A stretch of 33,814 bases of DNA from Gemmatimonadota bacterium (GTDB lineage: Bacteria; Gemmatimonadota; Gemmatimonadetes; Gemmatimonadales; Gemmatimonadaceae): assembly GCA_016200495.1 (NCBI GenBank), contig JACQES010000252.1:1-33814 (forward strand), read 5' to 3'. This document shows, in pieces, positions 17,589 through 24,057 of this stretch. Every line of letters begins with the position of its first letter. Positions within the stretch are counted from its first letter, which is position 1. Below the pieces are notes generated by a model. That model was not told the DNA's origin. It saw only the letters and a program-made list of their open reading frames with translations, and did no database searches. Made by a program: the position numbers and the translations under genes.

Positions 17589-18077
17589 ATGGCGTTCAAG
17601 TTGCTCGTCACGCTGCACCTGCGGGCCGCGATCGTCTGGGCGGGCGGCATCGCGTTCCTCGCGCTCGTGGGCGCGCCGGCGCTGCGCGGGCTCGACGACG
17701 CCGCGCTCCGGCAGCGGCTGTTCGACGCACTGGGCCGGCGGTTCCGCACCGTGGGATGGAGCGCGGTCACCGTGTCGGTGGTGACGGGGCTGTTCCTGCT
17801 CCACGCGCGCGGGTGGCTCGACCCCGCGGTGCTCGGCTCGGCTGCCTTCTGGGGTACCGGTGCGGGGGTGGCGCTCACGCTCAAGCTCGTCGCGCTCGCC
17901 GCGATGTTCGCCATCAACGGCTGGCATGACTTCGTGGACGGGCCACGCGCGTCGGCGGCCACGGCGGGAACGCCTGACGCCCTGAGGCTTCGCCGGCGGG
18001 CGATGGTGCTGGCGCGCGTGGGCGCGGTGGCCGCGCTCGCGGTGCTGGTGGCGGGGGTGTGGGTGGCGCGGAGCTAG
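17589..18077 (+). CDS. CopD-like integral membrane protein
   Basis: A 162-residue membrane protein with four hydrophobic segments: about residues 5-30 (LVTLHLRAAIVWAGGIAFLALVG), 52-72 (VGWSAVTVSVVTGLFLLHARG), 84-110 (AFWGTGAGVALTLKLVALAAMFAIN) and 136-158 (ARVGAVAALAVLVAGVWV). The His in LHLRAAIVWAGG and the HDF after helix three fit the CopD/cytochrome-b561-like topology of copper-resistance D proteins, but no copper genes are nearby. The ATG at 17589 has AGGGGG immediately upstream at very short spacing, so initiation could be weak. It is the last gene with core-like high GC before the accessory island. The function is uncertain; heme or copper handling is possible. Confidence 0.78.
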   Translation: MAFKLLVTLHLRAAIVWAGGIAFLALVGAPALRGLDDAALRQRLFDALGRRFRTVGWSAVTVSVVTGLFLLHARGWLDPAVLGSAAFWGTGAGVALTLKLVALAAMFAINGWHDFVDGPRASAATAGTPDALRLRRRAMVLARVGAVAALAVLVAGVWVARS

Positions 18078-18365
18078 CTGCTGACTCGCGAGAAGAAGAC
18101 GCAAGGGCACAGGACGTCACCGGAACGCTTCACGTCCGTCGCCGACCTCACGGTGTCAATCAGAACTACATGCAGCGCCAGATCACAATCCTCTGGCTCC
18201 CCTTGGCGACTCGACGGGGCTGGCTGCAGAGGAATAAGGTTTGGCCTCGGAAGGTGCCGCATCCGGATCACGCGCCGTGCTGACCGACATGAGGATGCTG
18301 CACGACTGGTGTCATTTGCGTATCTTTGAGGAGTCGTTTGTCACCACTCCATCCCCGAGCCCGTC
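18078..18365. other. Gene-free left edge of the low-GC accessory island
   Basis: These 288 bases hold no gene that I can support. Base composition falls visibly relative to the left flank, and the short open frames here have no family-like features. I saw no tRNA, integrase fragment or direct repeat marking an attachment site. The only signal is a promoter-like octamer at 18321-18328. The region could be the ragged left junction of an acquired segment. Confidence 0.5.
18321..18328 (+). promoter_or_regulatory. TATCTTTG -7/-10-like element before the antitoxin gene
   Basis: TATCTTTG lies 37 bases upstream of the antitoxin ATG at 18366. It fits both a sigma-70 -10 hexamer (TATCTT) and the TAnnTTTG -7 element known from Bacteroidota promoters. 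The corresponding upstream box is poor: CTGCAC at 17-bp spacing is a weak -35, and no TTTG is present at the Bacteroidota -33 position. It is a likely promoter site by position only. Confidence 0.35.
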
Positions 18366-18806
18366 ATGACAATCCGCGCCGTCGCTGGGAAGTTGGGGGG
18401 TCGCCGAGTGCTCCGTCGCGACGTTACCACCGGGGCCGACCTCATCGCTCTCGTGCGGGTCGGTCTGCCGTCGAAGTCACTTGAACTGCTTCTGGAAGCA
18501 CTACAGGAGTACGACATTCCTTCGTCAGTGATCTATAAGGCAATAGGCAACGTGCGTACATTGCAGCGCAAGCGCGGCGAGCGTAGTCGACTGTCTCCCG
18601 CCGAATCGGATCGCCTCGCCCGATTGGCCCGCGTCCTTGTGCGCGCCGAGGACGCGCTGGGTGACAGTGACCGCGGGCGTCGCTGGATCGCGATGCCCAA
18701 TCGAGCCCTCGGTGGCGACCGACCGATCGATCTCCTCGACAGCGACGTCGGCACCACGGTAGTCGAGCAAGTCCTGGGCCGCATCGAACACGGAGTGTAC
18801 GACTAG
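18366..18806 (+). CDS. ParS/MbcA/Xre-type antitoxin (DUF2384-like)
   Basis: A 146-residue antitoxin of the Xre/MbcA/ParS group. Residues about 20-80 form the helical DNA-binding part (LIALVRVGLPSKSLELLLEAL, then KAIGNVRTLQRKRGERSRLSPAESDRLARLARVL). The C-terminal toxin-binding domain has EDALGDSDRGRRWIAMPNRALGG, then RPIDLLDSDVGTTVVEQVLGRIEHGVYD, where the conserved RPIDLL and G-x-x-x-V-x-x-x-L-x-R-I-x-x-G-V are diagnostic. In known systems the antitoxin blocks the toxin active site with its C-terminal tail and represses its own operon. The RES toxin starts four bases after its stop. The ATG at 18366 has no clear Shine-Dalgarno. Codon use is less GC-biased than in the left flank, consistent with acquisition. 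Confidence 0.92.
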   Translation: MTIRAVAGKLGGRRVLRRDVTTGADLIALVRVGLPSKSLELLLEALQEYDIPSSVIYKAIGNVRTLQRKRGERSRLSPAESDRLARLARVLVRAEDALGDSDRGRRWIAMPNRALGGDRPIDLLDSDVGTTVVEQVLGRIEHGVYD

Positions 18807-18810
18807 CGAA

Positions 18811-19266
18811 ATGCGCGTATATCGCCTGTGCCGACGGCCGTACGCGGTGCTTGACGGAGAGGGCGCCAGACTCCACGGCGGCCGATGGAACAGTCCCGGT
18901 CGCCCTGTAGTGTACACTTCGTCGTCACTGTCACTGTCCGCGCTCGAGTTCCTCATTCACGTCGACATTTCCCTCGTTCCCGACGACCTCGTCTCCCTCA
19001 CGATCGAGCTCCCATCGGCGATTTCGGTGCTCGAAGTGGATCTGGGCTCGCTACCCTCTTCGTGGAACAGCCCTATGAAGGTCGAGGAGTGCCAACGAAT
19101 CGGCGACGCGTGGCTTGCGCGCGGGGAGAGTGCCGCGCTTCGAGTCCCCTCAGTTGCCGTGCCGAGCGAGTGGAACATTCTTCTGAACCCGAGCCATCCC
19201 GATCATCGGCGCATCCGGATGCTCAGCTCCACGCCGTTTCATTTCGACACGCGCTTACTTGGCTAG
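18811..19266 (+). CDS. RES-domain toxin (NAD+-degrading family)
   Basis: A 151-residue RES toxin. Conserved residues are visible with the right spacing: R25 in GGRWNSPG, Y35 in VVYTSSS, E46 in SALEFLIH and the Ser in PSEWNILLNPSHPD. RES toxins such as MbcT and Res deplete NAD+ by phosphorolysis or hydrolysis; ParT from Sphingobium ADP-ribosylates PRPP synthetase. Which activity applies here cannot be told from sequence. The gene follows the ParS/Xre-type antitoxin by four bases, giving the usual antitoxin-toxin order. Its last eight bases overlap a TTG that opens the reading frame of the sigma factor downstream. All key residues are intact, so the module looks functional. Confidence 0.93.
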   Translation: MRVYRLCRRPYAVLDGEGARLHGGRWNSPGRPVVYTSSSLSLSALEFLIHVDISLVPDDLVSLTIELPSAISVLEVDLGSLPSSWNSPMKVEECQRIGDAWLARGESAALRVPSVAVPSEWNILLNPSHPDHRRIRMLSSTPFHFDTRLLG

Positions 19267-19966
19267 TTCATCGCGTGTCTCCCCAATCACGGCGCGGCGA
19301 CATTTCACATCTGTCTCGCGAAATCCGCTCGGAGGCCTAGCGACGTCAACTCAGTCGGAAGGAGATAGTCACAGGGAGCCGCGTGCCCGAGCGGCGAGGC
19401 CGGGCAGGGCTTCGGACGCGCTCTTGCGTCAGCTTTCAGAGCCGGACCCGGCCTGCCGCGACGCGATCAATCTCCTAGCGGCGGGCTCGTTGGGCGGGAT
19501 CGTGCTGGCACAGTTGCGTCGGCGCTGCCACGGCGACGAGGATTTGGCCAGTGATCTGGCCCAAGAGACGTGGCGTCGCATCTGGAAGGCGAGAGGAACC
19601 TGGCAGGCCAACTCGGGCGGTGCCGCGATCGGCTTTGTACTCGCTGTGGCCCACAACTGTTACTTGTCGCATGTTCGGTCTGATTTCCGACGCGTGAATC
19701 GTGAGTCGGAAGCGGCCCGAGAGTCTGCGGGGCGCGATGCGCTCCCGAGCTATTCGGTCGATGACCTCATGGATTTGCATGCGGCCCTCAAACGACTCGA
19801 CGCCCCGGACCGCGAGCTCCTCGAGCTTGCGTACTTCCGCGATGCATCGGACGAGGCTCTGGCCGCACATCTCGGTCTCACCAAGGAGGCTGCAAAAAAG
19901 CGCCGGCAGGCGGCGTTGTCTCGCCTGCGCGCAACCTTCGTTCATCCATCCGATCGAGAGCCGTAG
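19259..19966 (+). CDS. Sigma-70 family (ECF-like) RNA polymerase sigma factor
   Basis: The protein has at most 235 residues if begun at TTG 19259, overlapping the toxin stop. The conserved part starts only near residue 52. Region 2 shows DLASDLAQETWRRIWKARGTW and a DNA-melting-like FVLAVAHNCYLSHVRSDFRR. Region 4 shows LKRLDAPDRELLELAYFRDASDEALAAHLGLTKEAAKKRRQAALSRLR, a helix-turn-helix. The start is unsure: TTG 19424 also fits the domain, and the AAGGAG at 19359-19364 has no in-frame start at normal distance. There is no recognisable zinc-finger anti-sigma gene next to it. I infer that it directs RNA polymerase to promoters within this island, perhaps its own. Confidence 0.8.
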   Translation: MASSSRVSPITARRHFTSVSRNPLGGLATSTQSEGDSHREPRARAARPGRASDALLRQLSEPDPACRDAINLLAAGSLGGIVLAQLRRRCHGDEDLASDLAQETWRRIWKARGTWQANSGGAAIGFVLAVAHNCYLSHVRSDFRRVNRESEAARESAGRDALPSYSVDDLMDLHAALKRLDAPDRELLELAYFRDASDEALAAHLGLTKEAAKKRRQAALSRLRATFVHPSDREP

Positions 19967-20017
19967 CGAGCACGCGCGGCCGATCGTCTTCACTCCCCCT
20001 ACCCTCATTGCGACCAC

Positions 20018-20359
20018 ATGCCGAATCGCTCCTCCTCCCGCACACCGACCGGCAGTCATCGTGTACCGAGCTCCGCTCCGGATTCAGAGTCCCTAAAGGT
20101 CCTGTTCGAGGCGATGACGGTCGAGACCGAGCCTGTTGCTCATGAACGGCCATTGATTCGGCGCGTCCGCGGTCGTCTGACGCGCGCACTCACTTGGGTT
20201 GACGAGTCAGTGCCGGAGCCGGACGGCGGTAGCGCCGACGACGCGATGTCGCGGGCTGACTCAGCCGCGCCTCCGGAGCACGCGCCCCCGCCGGACTCTA
20301 CGCAGTCGCTCATGCGCTCACTCCCCCGCCGCCCCCACCGAGCAGAATCGGACCCCTGA
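20018..20359 (+). CDS. Small hypothetical protein between sigma and HTH genes
   Basis: A 113-residue protein with no family that I recognise. Residues about 24-65 (SESLKVLFEAMTVETEPV, then RPLIRRVRGRLTRALTWVDES) look helical and amphipathic; both ends are Ser/Pro-rich and probably disordered. It has no membrane helix and no Cys/His cluster, so it is not a classical ZAS-type anti-sigma factor. It could still be a small soluble regulator of the sigma factor before it, but only the position suggests this. The ATG at 20018 lies 51 bases after the sigma stop without a clear Shine-Dalgarno, and the stop is 30 bases before the HTH-protein start. Coding status is moderately likely. Confidence 0.55.
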   Translation: MPNRSSSRTPTGSHRVPSSAPDSESLKVLFEAMTVETEPVAHERPLIRRVRGRLTRALTWVDESVPEPDGGSADDAMSRADSAAPPEHAPPPDSTQSLMRSLPRRPHRAESDP

Positions 20360-20389
20360 TCTTTTCTCCGTTCCCCGTCTGGAGCGCCC

Positions 20390-21319
20390 ATGGCCGCGAG
20401 AACCGCATACTCGGAGCCAACGCCGATCCTGACCCTCCCGCCCTTCAAGCACGTATCGAGGGAGGTTCGCAACCAGATTTGGACTAAGCTTGAGCAGCTC
20501 AATGACACCATGGAGCCGCATGGATTTGCGGCTGAAGTGCCGTGTCGGGATGGGCCCTTGGTGGAGATAGCGGAGAAAAAGTGGCGAGATGTCATCGCGG
20601 AGGACGCTGAGACACTTCGGCATCGTCCGGCGGTGGTGGCGATTACGGGGCTTCCAACTCGTGGCATCCACGCGCTTCTCGACCGCGCCGCCGACCTAGG
20701 GGTGCCGCAGCTTCATCTGCATTGGCCAGGAACGCTCCCCATAGCGACGCGCGGGCGCGTGCTTCTCTCCAGTCTCATCGACTCAGCGGGTTACTGGCGG
20801 GAGGAGGTTGGTCGTGTGCTTCACGAGTACGGCGCGTCGCTGCACAAGGCGTTCGCGTCGCAGGGAGGACATTCTCATCGTGTTCCGCCCGCCCCTGCGC
20901 ACGACCCTCGGCCGGTGCGGCTGGAGTACCTGAGGAATGCGCACGACCCGCTGCCGCTCTCGCCCGAGCTGCTTGCAGAGCGGGCTGGACTCCCGCGCGG
21001 CCGAGTCGAGGCAATGTGCCTCCTGGCATGGGACGACATTGACCTGCACATGAAGTCGGCGCGCGCGCTGGCGAAGGCGCTCGACGTCCCGTTGCGCGCT
21101 CTGCTTGTGGATAGCGATCGGGACGCAGGTATCATCATTCGCTGCGGGCAGATCGAACTCGAGGCGAAGGTCCGGCGGAGCAGCGGGCGAGTGCGCGCGC
21201 AGGCACTGCGCCAGGTTTTCTTCCGGACCGATCCATCGAACGAGTTGGCGCGGCTCTCGATCGCGCAAATTCGCGCGATTTTTTCCCATGCTGAACGCTC
21301 TCAGGGAGAATCCAAGTGA
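20390..21319 (+). CDS. 309-aa protein with XRE-like HTH in its C-terminal half
   Basis: Residues about 185-240 (LPLSPELLAERAGLPRGRVEAM, then the segment DDIDLHMKSARALAKALDVPLRALLV) read as an XRE-type helix-turn-helix in which SARALAKALDVPLRAL is the typical last helices. The N-terminal 180 residues are not recognised; AVVAITGLPTRGIHALLDRA followed by VPQLHLHWPGTLPI suggests an alpha/beta core. The C-terminal 60 residues have IIIRCGQIELEAKVRR and SIAQIRAIFSHAERS. XRE repressors are the substrates of ImmA/IrrE peptidases (ImmR, DdrO), and the ImmA/IrrE gene begins at the overlapping GTGA, so this is the likely partner. GGAG precedes the ATG at 20390 at good spacing. It is the strongest candidate here for a new regulator type. 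Confidence 0.8.
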   Translation: MAARTAYSEPTPILTLPPFKHVSREVRNQIWTKLEQLNDTMEPHGFAAEVPCRDGPLVEIAEKKWRDVIAEDAETLRHRPAVVAITGLPTRGIHALLDRAADLGVPQLHLHWPGTLPIATRGRVLLSSLIDSAGYWREEVGRVLHEYGASLHKAFASQGGHSHRVPPAPAHDPRPVRLEYLRNAHDPLPLSPELLAERAGLPRGRVEAMCLLAWDDIDLHMKSARALAKALDVPLRALLVDSDRDAGIIIRCGQIELEAKVRRSSGRVRAQALRQVFFRTDPSNELARLSIAQIRAIFSHAERSQGESK

Positions 21320-22255
21320 ACAGCAGAGTTGGCTTGAGCGACGGCGCGGTGGCATCCATCCAACTCAACCTGCCCATTCGCTTGCACGATCGCTCTCCGA
21401 GCCCCGATCGCCTGCTCGCGGAACTGCTCGGTCAGGACTACGCCTCTCTATGCGACCTTCCAGCCGGTCGGTCAGTCGAGGTACTCGCGAAGCGATTGGG
21501 CGTCGAGGTCAAGCGACTCCCAATGGAGACACTTGGTCAACTGCTCGCCGACTCAACGCGACCGGTTGTTCTACTGCGCGAAGACGCCGATCCCAGACGA
21601 CAGCGTTACACCTTGGCGCACGAGCTTGCGCATCTGCTCGTATGTCGAGCAAGCGAGCGTCGGTTTGTCTCGCCTGCCCTCCGCGAGGTCACAAGGTGCG
21701 AGAGCATTAGCACGCTTGAGTGGCACGTCGATCGCATGCGTCGCTCGGCCAAGCTGGAATTCGTGGTCTCGACGCGGCGTTTGAGCTCAAGAAGCGCTTC
21801 TCGGCTAGCCTTGTCGCTGTTTGTCGACGGCTTGCATTTGTCACGAGCGACTACCTCACCCTCGCTTGCACTCTTCGCCCGGCTCCGGGAAAGGCAACCT
21901 GCTGCCGTGTCGACTGGTCCGTCTGCCGGAATCCTCGGGTATCGTTCGTGCCACGAAATAAGAGCCTCTCCGACGAGGGACCGGCCGCGCGAGCGATCCA
22001 GACCCGTCGCCCCGTGCACGCGCTCGTGACTGTCGACGTCGCCGACCACGAGCTTCAGGTAGCGCGGGCCTACGCCGTCCCGTATTCAGCAAAGGGCGCT
22101 TTGCTCCTTCTCGACCTCGCCTGTGACACTCCGCTCGGTTCGACTCTGGACATTGCACCACGCCTCTTGGCGATTCGTTCCCGTCGTCGCGGCTCGGAAC
22201 GGTCGAACTCATCGGCAGTTCGGTCGCCAGCAACATTTGCGAGATATTCAGGTGA
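21316..22255 (+). pseudogene. ImmA/IrrE-family metallo-endopeptidase gene, apparently frameshifted twice
   Basis: Begins at GTG 21316, overlapping the preceding stop (GTGA), with GGGAGAA upstream. The first frame gives RQRYTLAHELAHLL with the zinc motif H102-E-L-A-H106 and LEWHVDRM. Between about 21711 and 21790 family-like sequence continues in a second frame: AAFELKKRFSASLVAVCRRLAFV, then NPRVSFVPR and GALLLLDLA. Between 22127 and about 22160 it passes to the third frame, which ends GTVELIGSSVASNICEIF at a TGA at 22253-22255. Both changes go the same way (-1 or +2). ImmA/IrrE enzymes cleave XRE repressors to start excision or stress programmes. Without frameshifting, translation of the first frame stops at 22029 with an unrelated tail. 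Decay or assembly error are both possible; I favour decay. Confidence 0.72.
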
Positions 22256-22324
22256 ATCCCGCGAGTGACAGCAGCTCCGCACGGACAGCATCGCCTGAAG
22301 CTCGGTGAAGAAGATGATGTTCCC

Positions 22325-22378
22325 TTTCGCTGGCTTACGGCGCGCTACGACGGGTCCCACATGAACGAGCCAGCGAAA
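22325..22378. repeat. Inverted repeat at the right edge of the island
   Basis: TTTCGCTGGCT at 22325-22335 is repeated inverted as AGCCAGCGAAA at 22368-22378 with 32 bases between. It lies in the 170-base gap between the broken peptidase gene and the oxidoreductase gene, about where GC returns to the core level. It could be a relic of the insertion boundary or a regulatory dyad of the oxidoreductase, but an 11-bp match is also near chance expectation for a window of this size. Confidence 0.4.
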
Positions 22379-22425
22379 CGCGGATACCCCTTTCCGGCAC
22401 GGGGCCTCGTGTCAAGATTGAGGAC

Positions 22426-24057
22426 ATGGCGAGGACATCCGTCGACTACGACTGGCTCATCATCGGCTCCGGCTTCGGCGGCTCCGTGGCCGCGCTGCGC
22501 CTGTCGGAGAAGGGCTACACCGTCGGCGTGGTCGAGCAGGGGCGCCGCCACGCGGACCACGAGTACGCGGCCAGCACGTGGAACCTGCGCCGCTTCTTCT
22601 GGGCCCCGGCGCTCGGGCTGCGCGGCATCATGCGGCTCACGCCGTTCAAGGACATCTTCGTCGCGAGCGGCACGGCGGTGGGGGGCGGGAGCGCGGTGTA
22701 CGCCAACACGCTCTACCGGGCCAAGCCCGCCTTCTTCGAGAATCCGCAGTGGCAGGGACTCGACGACTGGGCCGCCGCGCTCGCGCCGCACTACGCGACG
22801 GCCGAGCGGATGCTCGGCGTGGCGCAGGTGCCGTTCGGGTCGGGCGGGCAGGACTTGCTCCGCGCCACCGGCCGGCACTTCGGCGTCGAGGACACCTTCA
22901 CGCGCACGCCGGTGGGGGTCTTCTTCGGCAAGGCCGGCGAGACGGTGCCGGACCCGTACTTCGGCGGCGAGGGCCCTGAGCGCACCGGCTGCACCAAGTG
23001 CGGCGCGTGCATGGTGGGGTGTCGCGTGGGCGCCAAGAACACGCTGCTCAAGAACTATCTCTGGTTCGCCGAGAAGCGGGGCGCGACGATCCTGCCCGAG
23101 CGCGAGGTGACGGACATCCGTCCGTTGGGCGCGGGAGACGGGCGGGACGGCTACGAGATCACGACGGAACGCCCCGGCGCGTGGCTGTTCAAGCAGCGCG
23201 AGACCTTCCGCGCCCGCGGCATCGTGGTCGCTGGCGGCGCGCTCGGCACCAACGCGCTCCTCGCCAACTGCGTCGCCAACGGCTCGCTGCCGCGGCTGAG
23301 CCCGCGCCTGGGCGAGCTGGTGCGCACCAACTCCGAGTCGATCCTCGCGGTCACGCTGCCGGACGACTCGACCGCGCCGTGGAACGACGTCGCGATCAGC
23401 GCGAGCATCCATCCGGACCACGACACGCACATCGAGCTGTGCACCTACGGCAAGCACGGCGACTTCATGAGCTTCCTGCTGGCGCCGCTCACCGGCAACG
23501 GCACGCGCGTCACGCGCCCGCTCATGCTGCTCAAGGCCATCGCGCGGCACCCGCTCCAGTTCCTGCGCGGGCGGTTTCCCTTCGGGTGGAGCAAGCGCAC
23601 GCTCGTGGTGCTGGTCATGCAGACGAGCGACAACGCGATTGCCTTCCGTGCGGTCAAGCGCCTGTTCGGGCGCGGCGTGCGGCTCACCACCGAGCAGAAC
23701 CGCGAGCACCCGAACCCGACGTTCATTCCCGTGGCGAACGCGGCGGCGGAGTTCATGGCGCGGCACACGGGCGGCATCGCGCAGAGCGGCGTGCTCGAGG
23801 CGGCGATGAACATCCCGACCACGGCGCACATCCTGGGCGGCGCGGTGATCGGCGCCGACGCGTCGCGCGGCGTGGTGGACGCGAAGCTCCGCGCGTTCGG
23901 CTACGAGAACTTCGTCATCTGCGACGGCTCGGCGATGCCCGCCAACCCGGGGGTGAACCCGTCGCTCACGATCACGGCGCTCGCGGAGCACGCGATGGCG
24001 CAGGTGGCGGCCAAGGGCGCCGCCGCGGACTTGGCTCGGGTCGCCGCCGTCGCCTGA
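22426..24057 (+). CDS. GMC-family FAD oxidoreductase (cholesterol oxidase ChoD-like)
   Basis: A 543-residue glucose-methanol-choline oxidoreductase. The FAD ADP-binding loop IIGSGFGGS is at residues 12-20, followed by VGVVEQG. GTAVGGGSAVYAN matches the second FAD motif. A Cys cluster C189-x2-C192-x2-C195-x3-C199 in TGCTKCGACMVGCRVGAKNT resembles that of mycobacterial ChoD-type proteins and could hold an iron-sulfur centre. The C-terminus has HILGGAVIG and NPGVNPSLTITALAE, with the active-site His/Asn region of the family. A sterol or other alcohol is the likely substrate type, but this is unproven. The ATG at 22426 has GAGG three bases upstream, a short spacing. It is the first gene with core-like GC right of the accessory island. 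Confidence 0.9.
   Translation: MARTSVDYDWLIIGSGFGGSVAALRLSEKGYTVGVVEQGRRHADHEYAASTWNLRRFFWAPALGLRGIMRLTPFKDIFVASGTAVGGGSAVYANTLYRAKPAFFENPQWQGLDDWAAALAPHYATAERMLGVAQVPFGSGGQDLLRATGRHFGVEDTFTRTPVGVFFGKAGETVPDPYFGGEGPERTGCTKCGACMVGCRVGAKNTLLKNYLWFAEKRGATILPEREVTDIRPLGAGDGRDGYEITTERPGAWLFKQRETFRARGIVVAGGALGTNALLANCVANGSLPRLSPRLGELVRTNSESILAVTLPDDSTAPWNDVAISASIHPDHDTHIELCTYGKHGDFMSFLLAPLTGNGTRVTRPLMLLKAIARHPLQFLRGRFPFGWSKRTLVVLVMQTSDNAIAFRAVKRLFGRGVRLTTEQNREHPNPTFIPVANAAAEFMARHTGGIAQSGVLEAAMNIPTTAHILGGAVIGADASRGVVDAKLRAFGYENFVICDGSAMPANPGVNPSLTITALAEHAMAQVAAKGAAADLARVAAVA

Follow-up and report, generated by a model that had tools for sequence, protein, structure and literature searches.

CapP is a protease that, as the work of Lau et al. 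2022 is cited in PMC13373217, is activated by ssDNA and cleaves the repressor CapH, which derepresses an adjacent immune operon, e.g. CBASS. PprI/DdrO works like CapP/CapH, and PprI without its C-terminal domain loses the response to ssDNA (PMC10904395). Besides these pairs, ImmA of ICEBs1 and the COG2856-Xre modules (PMC2701414) are the described systems closest to the locus presented here. It lies in a window of 33,814 nucleotides (the whole stretch of DNA that was analysed) from a Gemmatimonadota bacterium (contig JACQES010000252.1 of assembly GCA_016200495.1).

The locus contains an ImmA/IrrE protease gene with a GTG start at 21316; the frame of this codon is called frame 0, and that of position 21318, frame 2. 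Its likeness to CapP/CapH is seen in the PADLOC results, where capP was the top match both for the frame-0 product and for a reading joined to frame 2 (RmrA came next with ~20 bits), in the HExxH motif, and in the position of the gene, which is directly downstream of a presumed regulator gene and overlaps it. Moreover, plasmid relatives of this protease adjoin ThiF/multiubiquitin genes, or CBASS genes (CD-NTase, CBASS phospholipase). However, the reading frame is broken here, the partner has 309 residues with a weak HTH hint whereas CapH has ~105-110, and no known immune operon adjoins the protease, whose neighbours are a RES/Xre toxin-antitoxin pair and an ECF sigma factor.

Concerning IrrE/PprI, the peptidase domain is similar to that of the Deinococcus protein in PDB 3dte (E 0.003), and the order of peptidase, HTH and C-terminal sensor in IrrE/PprI (PMC10904395) fits the position of the break. 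On the other hand, the break comes after the peptidase core, and a C-terminal sensor or GAF-like domain was not recognisable in any frame with the family tail profile. ImmA of ICEBs1 and the COG2856-Xre modules share with this locus a protease beside a regulator, a mobile-looking segment and toxin-antitoxin genes nearby, but the sequence here is nearer to CapP and the partner is not recognisable as an Xre protein.

The low-GC island and its genes

The genome is a draft metagenome-type assembly of 4.14 Mb in 431 contigs, 85.7% complete. From ~18150 to 22400 the GC content is ~0.62, versus ~0.71 outside. The codon usage of this island differs from that of the core genes, and a codon model built from core genes gave zero coding signal in 18.15-22.4 kb. 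Because of the GC drop and the lack of coding seen by the core-trained model, the segment looks foreign in origin. The sigma factor, the 309-residue gene and the protease had no close relatives in the several hundred genomes of the class. An empty-site comparison gave no result, both same-genus genomes (2/2) being without the flanking gene. No Rfam match was obtained in 17800-22600. The features of the island are listed in Table 1.

Table 1. Coordinates of the features around the protease gene, in positions of the window
Feature	Position	Strand	Remarks
Xre/ParS-type antitoxin	18366-18806		Intact; NCBIfam 98.9 bits
RES-domain toxin	18811-19266		Intact; NCBIfam 167.3 bits; paired with the Xre antitoxin
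ECF-type sigma factor	~19337-19966		
113-codon ORF	20018-20359		Between the sigma factor and the orphan gene
Orphan gene, 309 codons	20390-21319	+	Intact; directly upstream of the protease
Frame-0 ORF of the protease	21316-22029	+	From translation; GTG start 21316, stop 22027-22029
HELAH (HExxH) metallopeptidase motif	21619-21633	+	Residues 102-106; sequence and profile alignments
Glu135 of STLEWHVDRM	21718-21720	+	Frame 0; likely third metal ligand
Changeover (frame 0 to frame 2)	21757-21774	+	-1 or +2 sense; limits ~21740-21775
Displaced gene remainder, AAFELKKRFSASLVAVCRRLAF...ALLLLDLA	21765-22127	+	Frame 2; profiles, codon phase, open frame
Supposed third-frame tail, GTVELIGSSVASNICEIF	22127-22255	+	Unsupported as part of the gene

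The stop of the 309-codon gene overlaps the protease GTG by 4 bases; translational coupling of the two genes was also noted. The C-terminal part of its product is weakly HTH-like (HTH_3 with an E-value of 0.2 only), and residues 195-249 weakly match phrog_13326, whose function is not known (E 6.7e-4). No relatives of this protein were found in 179 genomes of the family, plasmids, Pfam or PDB, and its single-sequence structure model, built without relatives, was poor (pLDDT 39). The product is presumed to be the regulator, or repressor, partner of the protease. The 113-codon ORF gave no family match and may or may not be a real gene. Furthermore, neither the 309-residue protein nor this ORF nor either gene of the RES/Xre pair gave a PADLOC match.

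Regarding the protease, its gene is the sole Pfam M78 match in the genome. Close intact homologues were found neither in the 179 genomes of the family or 394 of the class, nor in phages and viral contigs, and in plasmids no relative exceeded ~37% identity. A set of 84,980 genomes yielded 9 matches, with identities of at most 55% over short stretches, and one of them, from Chthoniobacteraceae (L011), was rejected as a chance match. All the plasmid relatives taken (14/14) read in a single continuous frame. As a separate observation, CapP-like genes on alphaproteobacterial plasmids (L006, L007, L063) adjoin ThiF/multiubiquitin, CD-NTase/CBASS phospholipase and nucleotidyltransferase genes.

The frame change near position 21760

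The frame-0 product matches PF06114 (peptidase M78, ImmA/IrrE) at residues 58-109 with 31.9 bits, the cut-off being 22. Glu135 stands 29 residues past the second histidine of the HELAH motif and is aligned opposite the E-x-EANRF region in the profile alignment. This spacing is the one expected for the third ligand in this family, and the assignment of Glu135 as that ligand is likely by analogy with IrrE/ImmA. Frame 0 covers positions 1-55 of the 123 of the PF06114 profile and the rest is covered in frame 2 only; no single continuous frame holds the whole M78 domain here. An independent profile of 32 homologues, with the window sequence left out, aligned with frame 0 from 21472 to 21759. Frame 0 is thus in-family to ~21760, and from there it runs through a tail of ~84-90 out-of-frame codons, with VSTRRLSSRSASRLALS, up to its stop.

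When a frame-2 continuation taken from 21771-21774 was joined to the frame-0 part, the Pfam M78 score rose from 32.7 bits (profile 1-55) to 39.7 bits (1-122), and that of PADLOC capP from 30.8 bits (profile 23-94) to 40.2 bits (23-160). The Pfam gain was absent with a frame-0 or frame-1 continuation (frame 1: 32.5 bits) and with 10 shuffled tails (32.3-32.5 bits), and the capP controls (frame 1, four shuffles and frame 0) gave 30.4-30.8 bits. Moreover, positions 146-178 of the window-free profile match frame 2 at ~21765-21863, colinear with the frame-0 part, and only 0.5-0.7% of 2000 dinucleotide shuffles matched equally well (p ~0.005). Over all the profiles, frame 2 is supported at ~21765-21867, and beyond this segment no frame had a profile match. 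A frameshift-aware Viterbi alignment with a home-made profile did not choose the shift, the gain being smaller than the penalty plus a 27-position deletion, and the frame-2 evidence was taken from the local and curated-profile tests instead. The profile of alignment A1, which includes the joined sequence of the window itself, matched frame 2 strongly and was kept out of the evidence.

The base composition at codon positions follows frame 0 in the earlier part and frame 2 at ~21970-22170, and frame 0 loses its coding phase past ~21975. Codon statistics at 21800-21960 are indecisive, with a slight lean to frame 0 over frame 2, and between ~21867 and ~21970 it is the open frame alone that carries the continuation in frame 2. 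This frame is open from 21720 to ~22266-22268, that is, 163 codons past the junction, a length that 4% of shuffles match for a given frame.

At the level of sequence, then, a single frameshift at ~21760 in the CapP-like ImmA/IrrE gene is confirmed. The sequence-only reading had proposed a first shift between 21711 and 21790 with a -1 or +2 sense, and both its place and its sense hold: Pfam, capP and the independent profile agree on a changeover near 21760, and the passage is from frame 0 to frame 2. It had also described a gene running through all three frames, two of which (0 and 2) are supported, whereas the third brings no gain in score. As no close intact homologue was found, the indel is placed within ~21740-21775 and not to the base.

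Inactivation, error or recoding

The gene was probably broken by one small indel near 21760 and would now be a decayed CapP-like ImmA/IrrE gene, most likely a pseudogene. Such an inactivating indel is the likeliest reading, with a single assembly error in second place. Decay is plausible here because the island has a GC content of 0.62 and its genes are without close relatives in the class. The metal-binding residues would still be read, but the final helices of the peptidase domain, the HTH-like part and the remainder would be displaced into the -1/+2 frame. The product would be a chimeric protein of 237 residues that ends in nonsense sequence and probably does not fold or cannot respond. The intact, presumed repressor partner would then remain uncleaved and the module stuck unswitched. 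Since the gene loses the end of its peptidase domain and everything after it through the break, the switch is most likely dead. This would be another regulatory protease of the ImmA/IrrE/CapP type that decays in an acquired island beside intact genes, and it calls for caution against annotating a working switch at this locus.

It is also possible, although unlikely, that the true gene is intact and that a one-base-type error of assembly or sequencing near 21760 produced the break. The fragmented draft assembly agrees with this, as do the long open frame 2 and its coding-like phase at 21970-22170, which look as if decay were recent or absent. However, errors in homopolymer runs are the commonest type of indel error, and an error of this type is not suggested because there is no run of at least four identical bases between 21406 and 22009. 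In addition, no frameshift-like change was seen in the contig's other 29 core coding segments. For these reasons, and because one shift is supported, the two sequence errors offered by the sequence-only reading are disfavoured, and of the causes that it listed, inactivation has the best support, with one indel as its origin.

A gene with two indels, running across all three frames, is considerably more doubtful. A second shift had been proposed at 22127-22160, with a tail up to a stop at 22253-22255. The third-frame tail (~22157-22252) gave no capP gain (39.6 vs 39.5 bits), the codon-phase analysis revealed no clear coding frame at ~22170-22265, and the family tail profile (25 relatives) matched no frame past 21849. 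Full-length relatives have ~90 positions after profile position 178, which places the expected end of the protein at ~22130, and frame 2 itself is open to 22266. On the other hand, the supposed third frame (frame 1) contains a TGA at 22124, near the end of the relatives, and the length leaves room for a second shift just upstream. Since the tail adds no score, has no coding phase and lies beyond the expected end, the second shift is unsupported by the sequence, although not disproved. The same TGA limits the earlier observation that no stop codon interrupts at the changeover points: at the first of these points it is true of frames 0 and 2.

It is very improbable that there is no frameshift and that frame 0 encodes a genuine divergent C-terminal part, with the frame-2 match arising by chance. 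Frame 0 is open for 84 further codons and the codon statistics at 21800-21960 are slightly in its favour, but the colinear frame-2 match exceeds 99.3-99.5% of the shuffles, the two curated profiles (Pfam M78 and PADLOC capP) also show it, and the coding phase of frame 0 does not extend past ~21975.

Very little credence can be given to a functional frame change, in which recoding, or separate translation of frame 2 from GTG 21720, would give a CapP-like protease in two pieces, occasionally fused, and the switch of the module would depend on the change of frame. A stress or immune module would then be gated in a new manner, and nothing points there. Least credible of all is programmed -1 ribosomal frameshifting, or other recoding, by which a short protease would be made besides the full-length one: frames 0 and 2 are both open and overlap over 21720-22026, but it is disfavoured because, as already noticed in the first reading, the changeover (21720-21790) holds no slippery heptamer, the only X-XXY-YYZ heptamer of the region (GGGAAAG at 21887) being ~120 bases downstream and out of the frame-0 register, and the 14 single-frame plasmid relatives do not keep the arrangement.

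Elsewhere in the genome, a simple codon model gave four candidate frameshift-like changes in 135 kb. The candidate frame changes on other contigs lie at L019 5700-7655, L022 2419-3826, L032 8933-9859 and L032 10786-12913.
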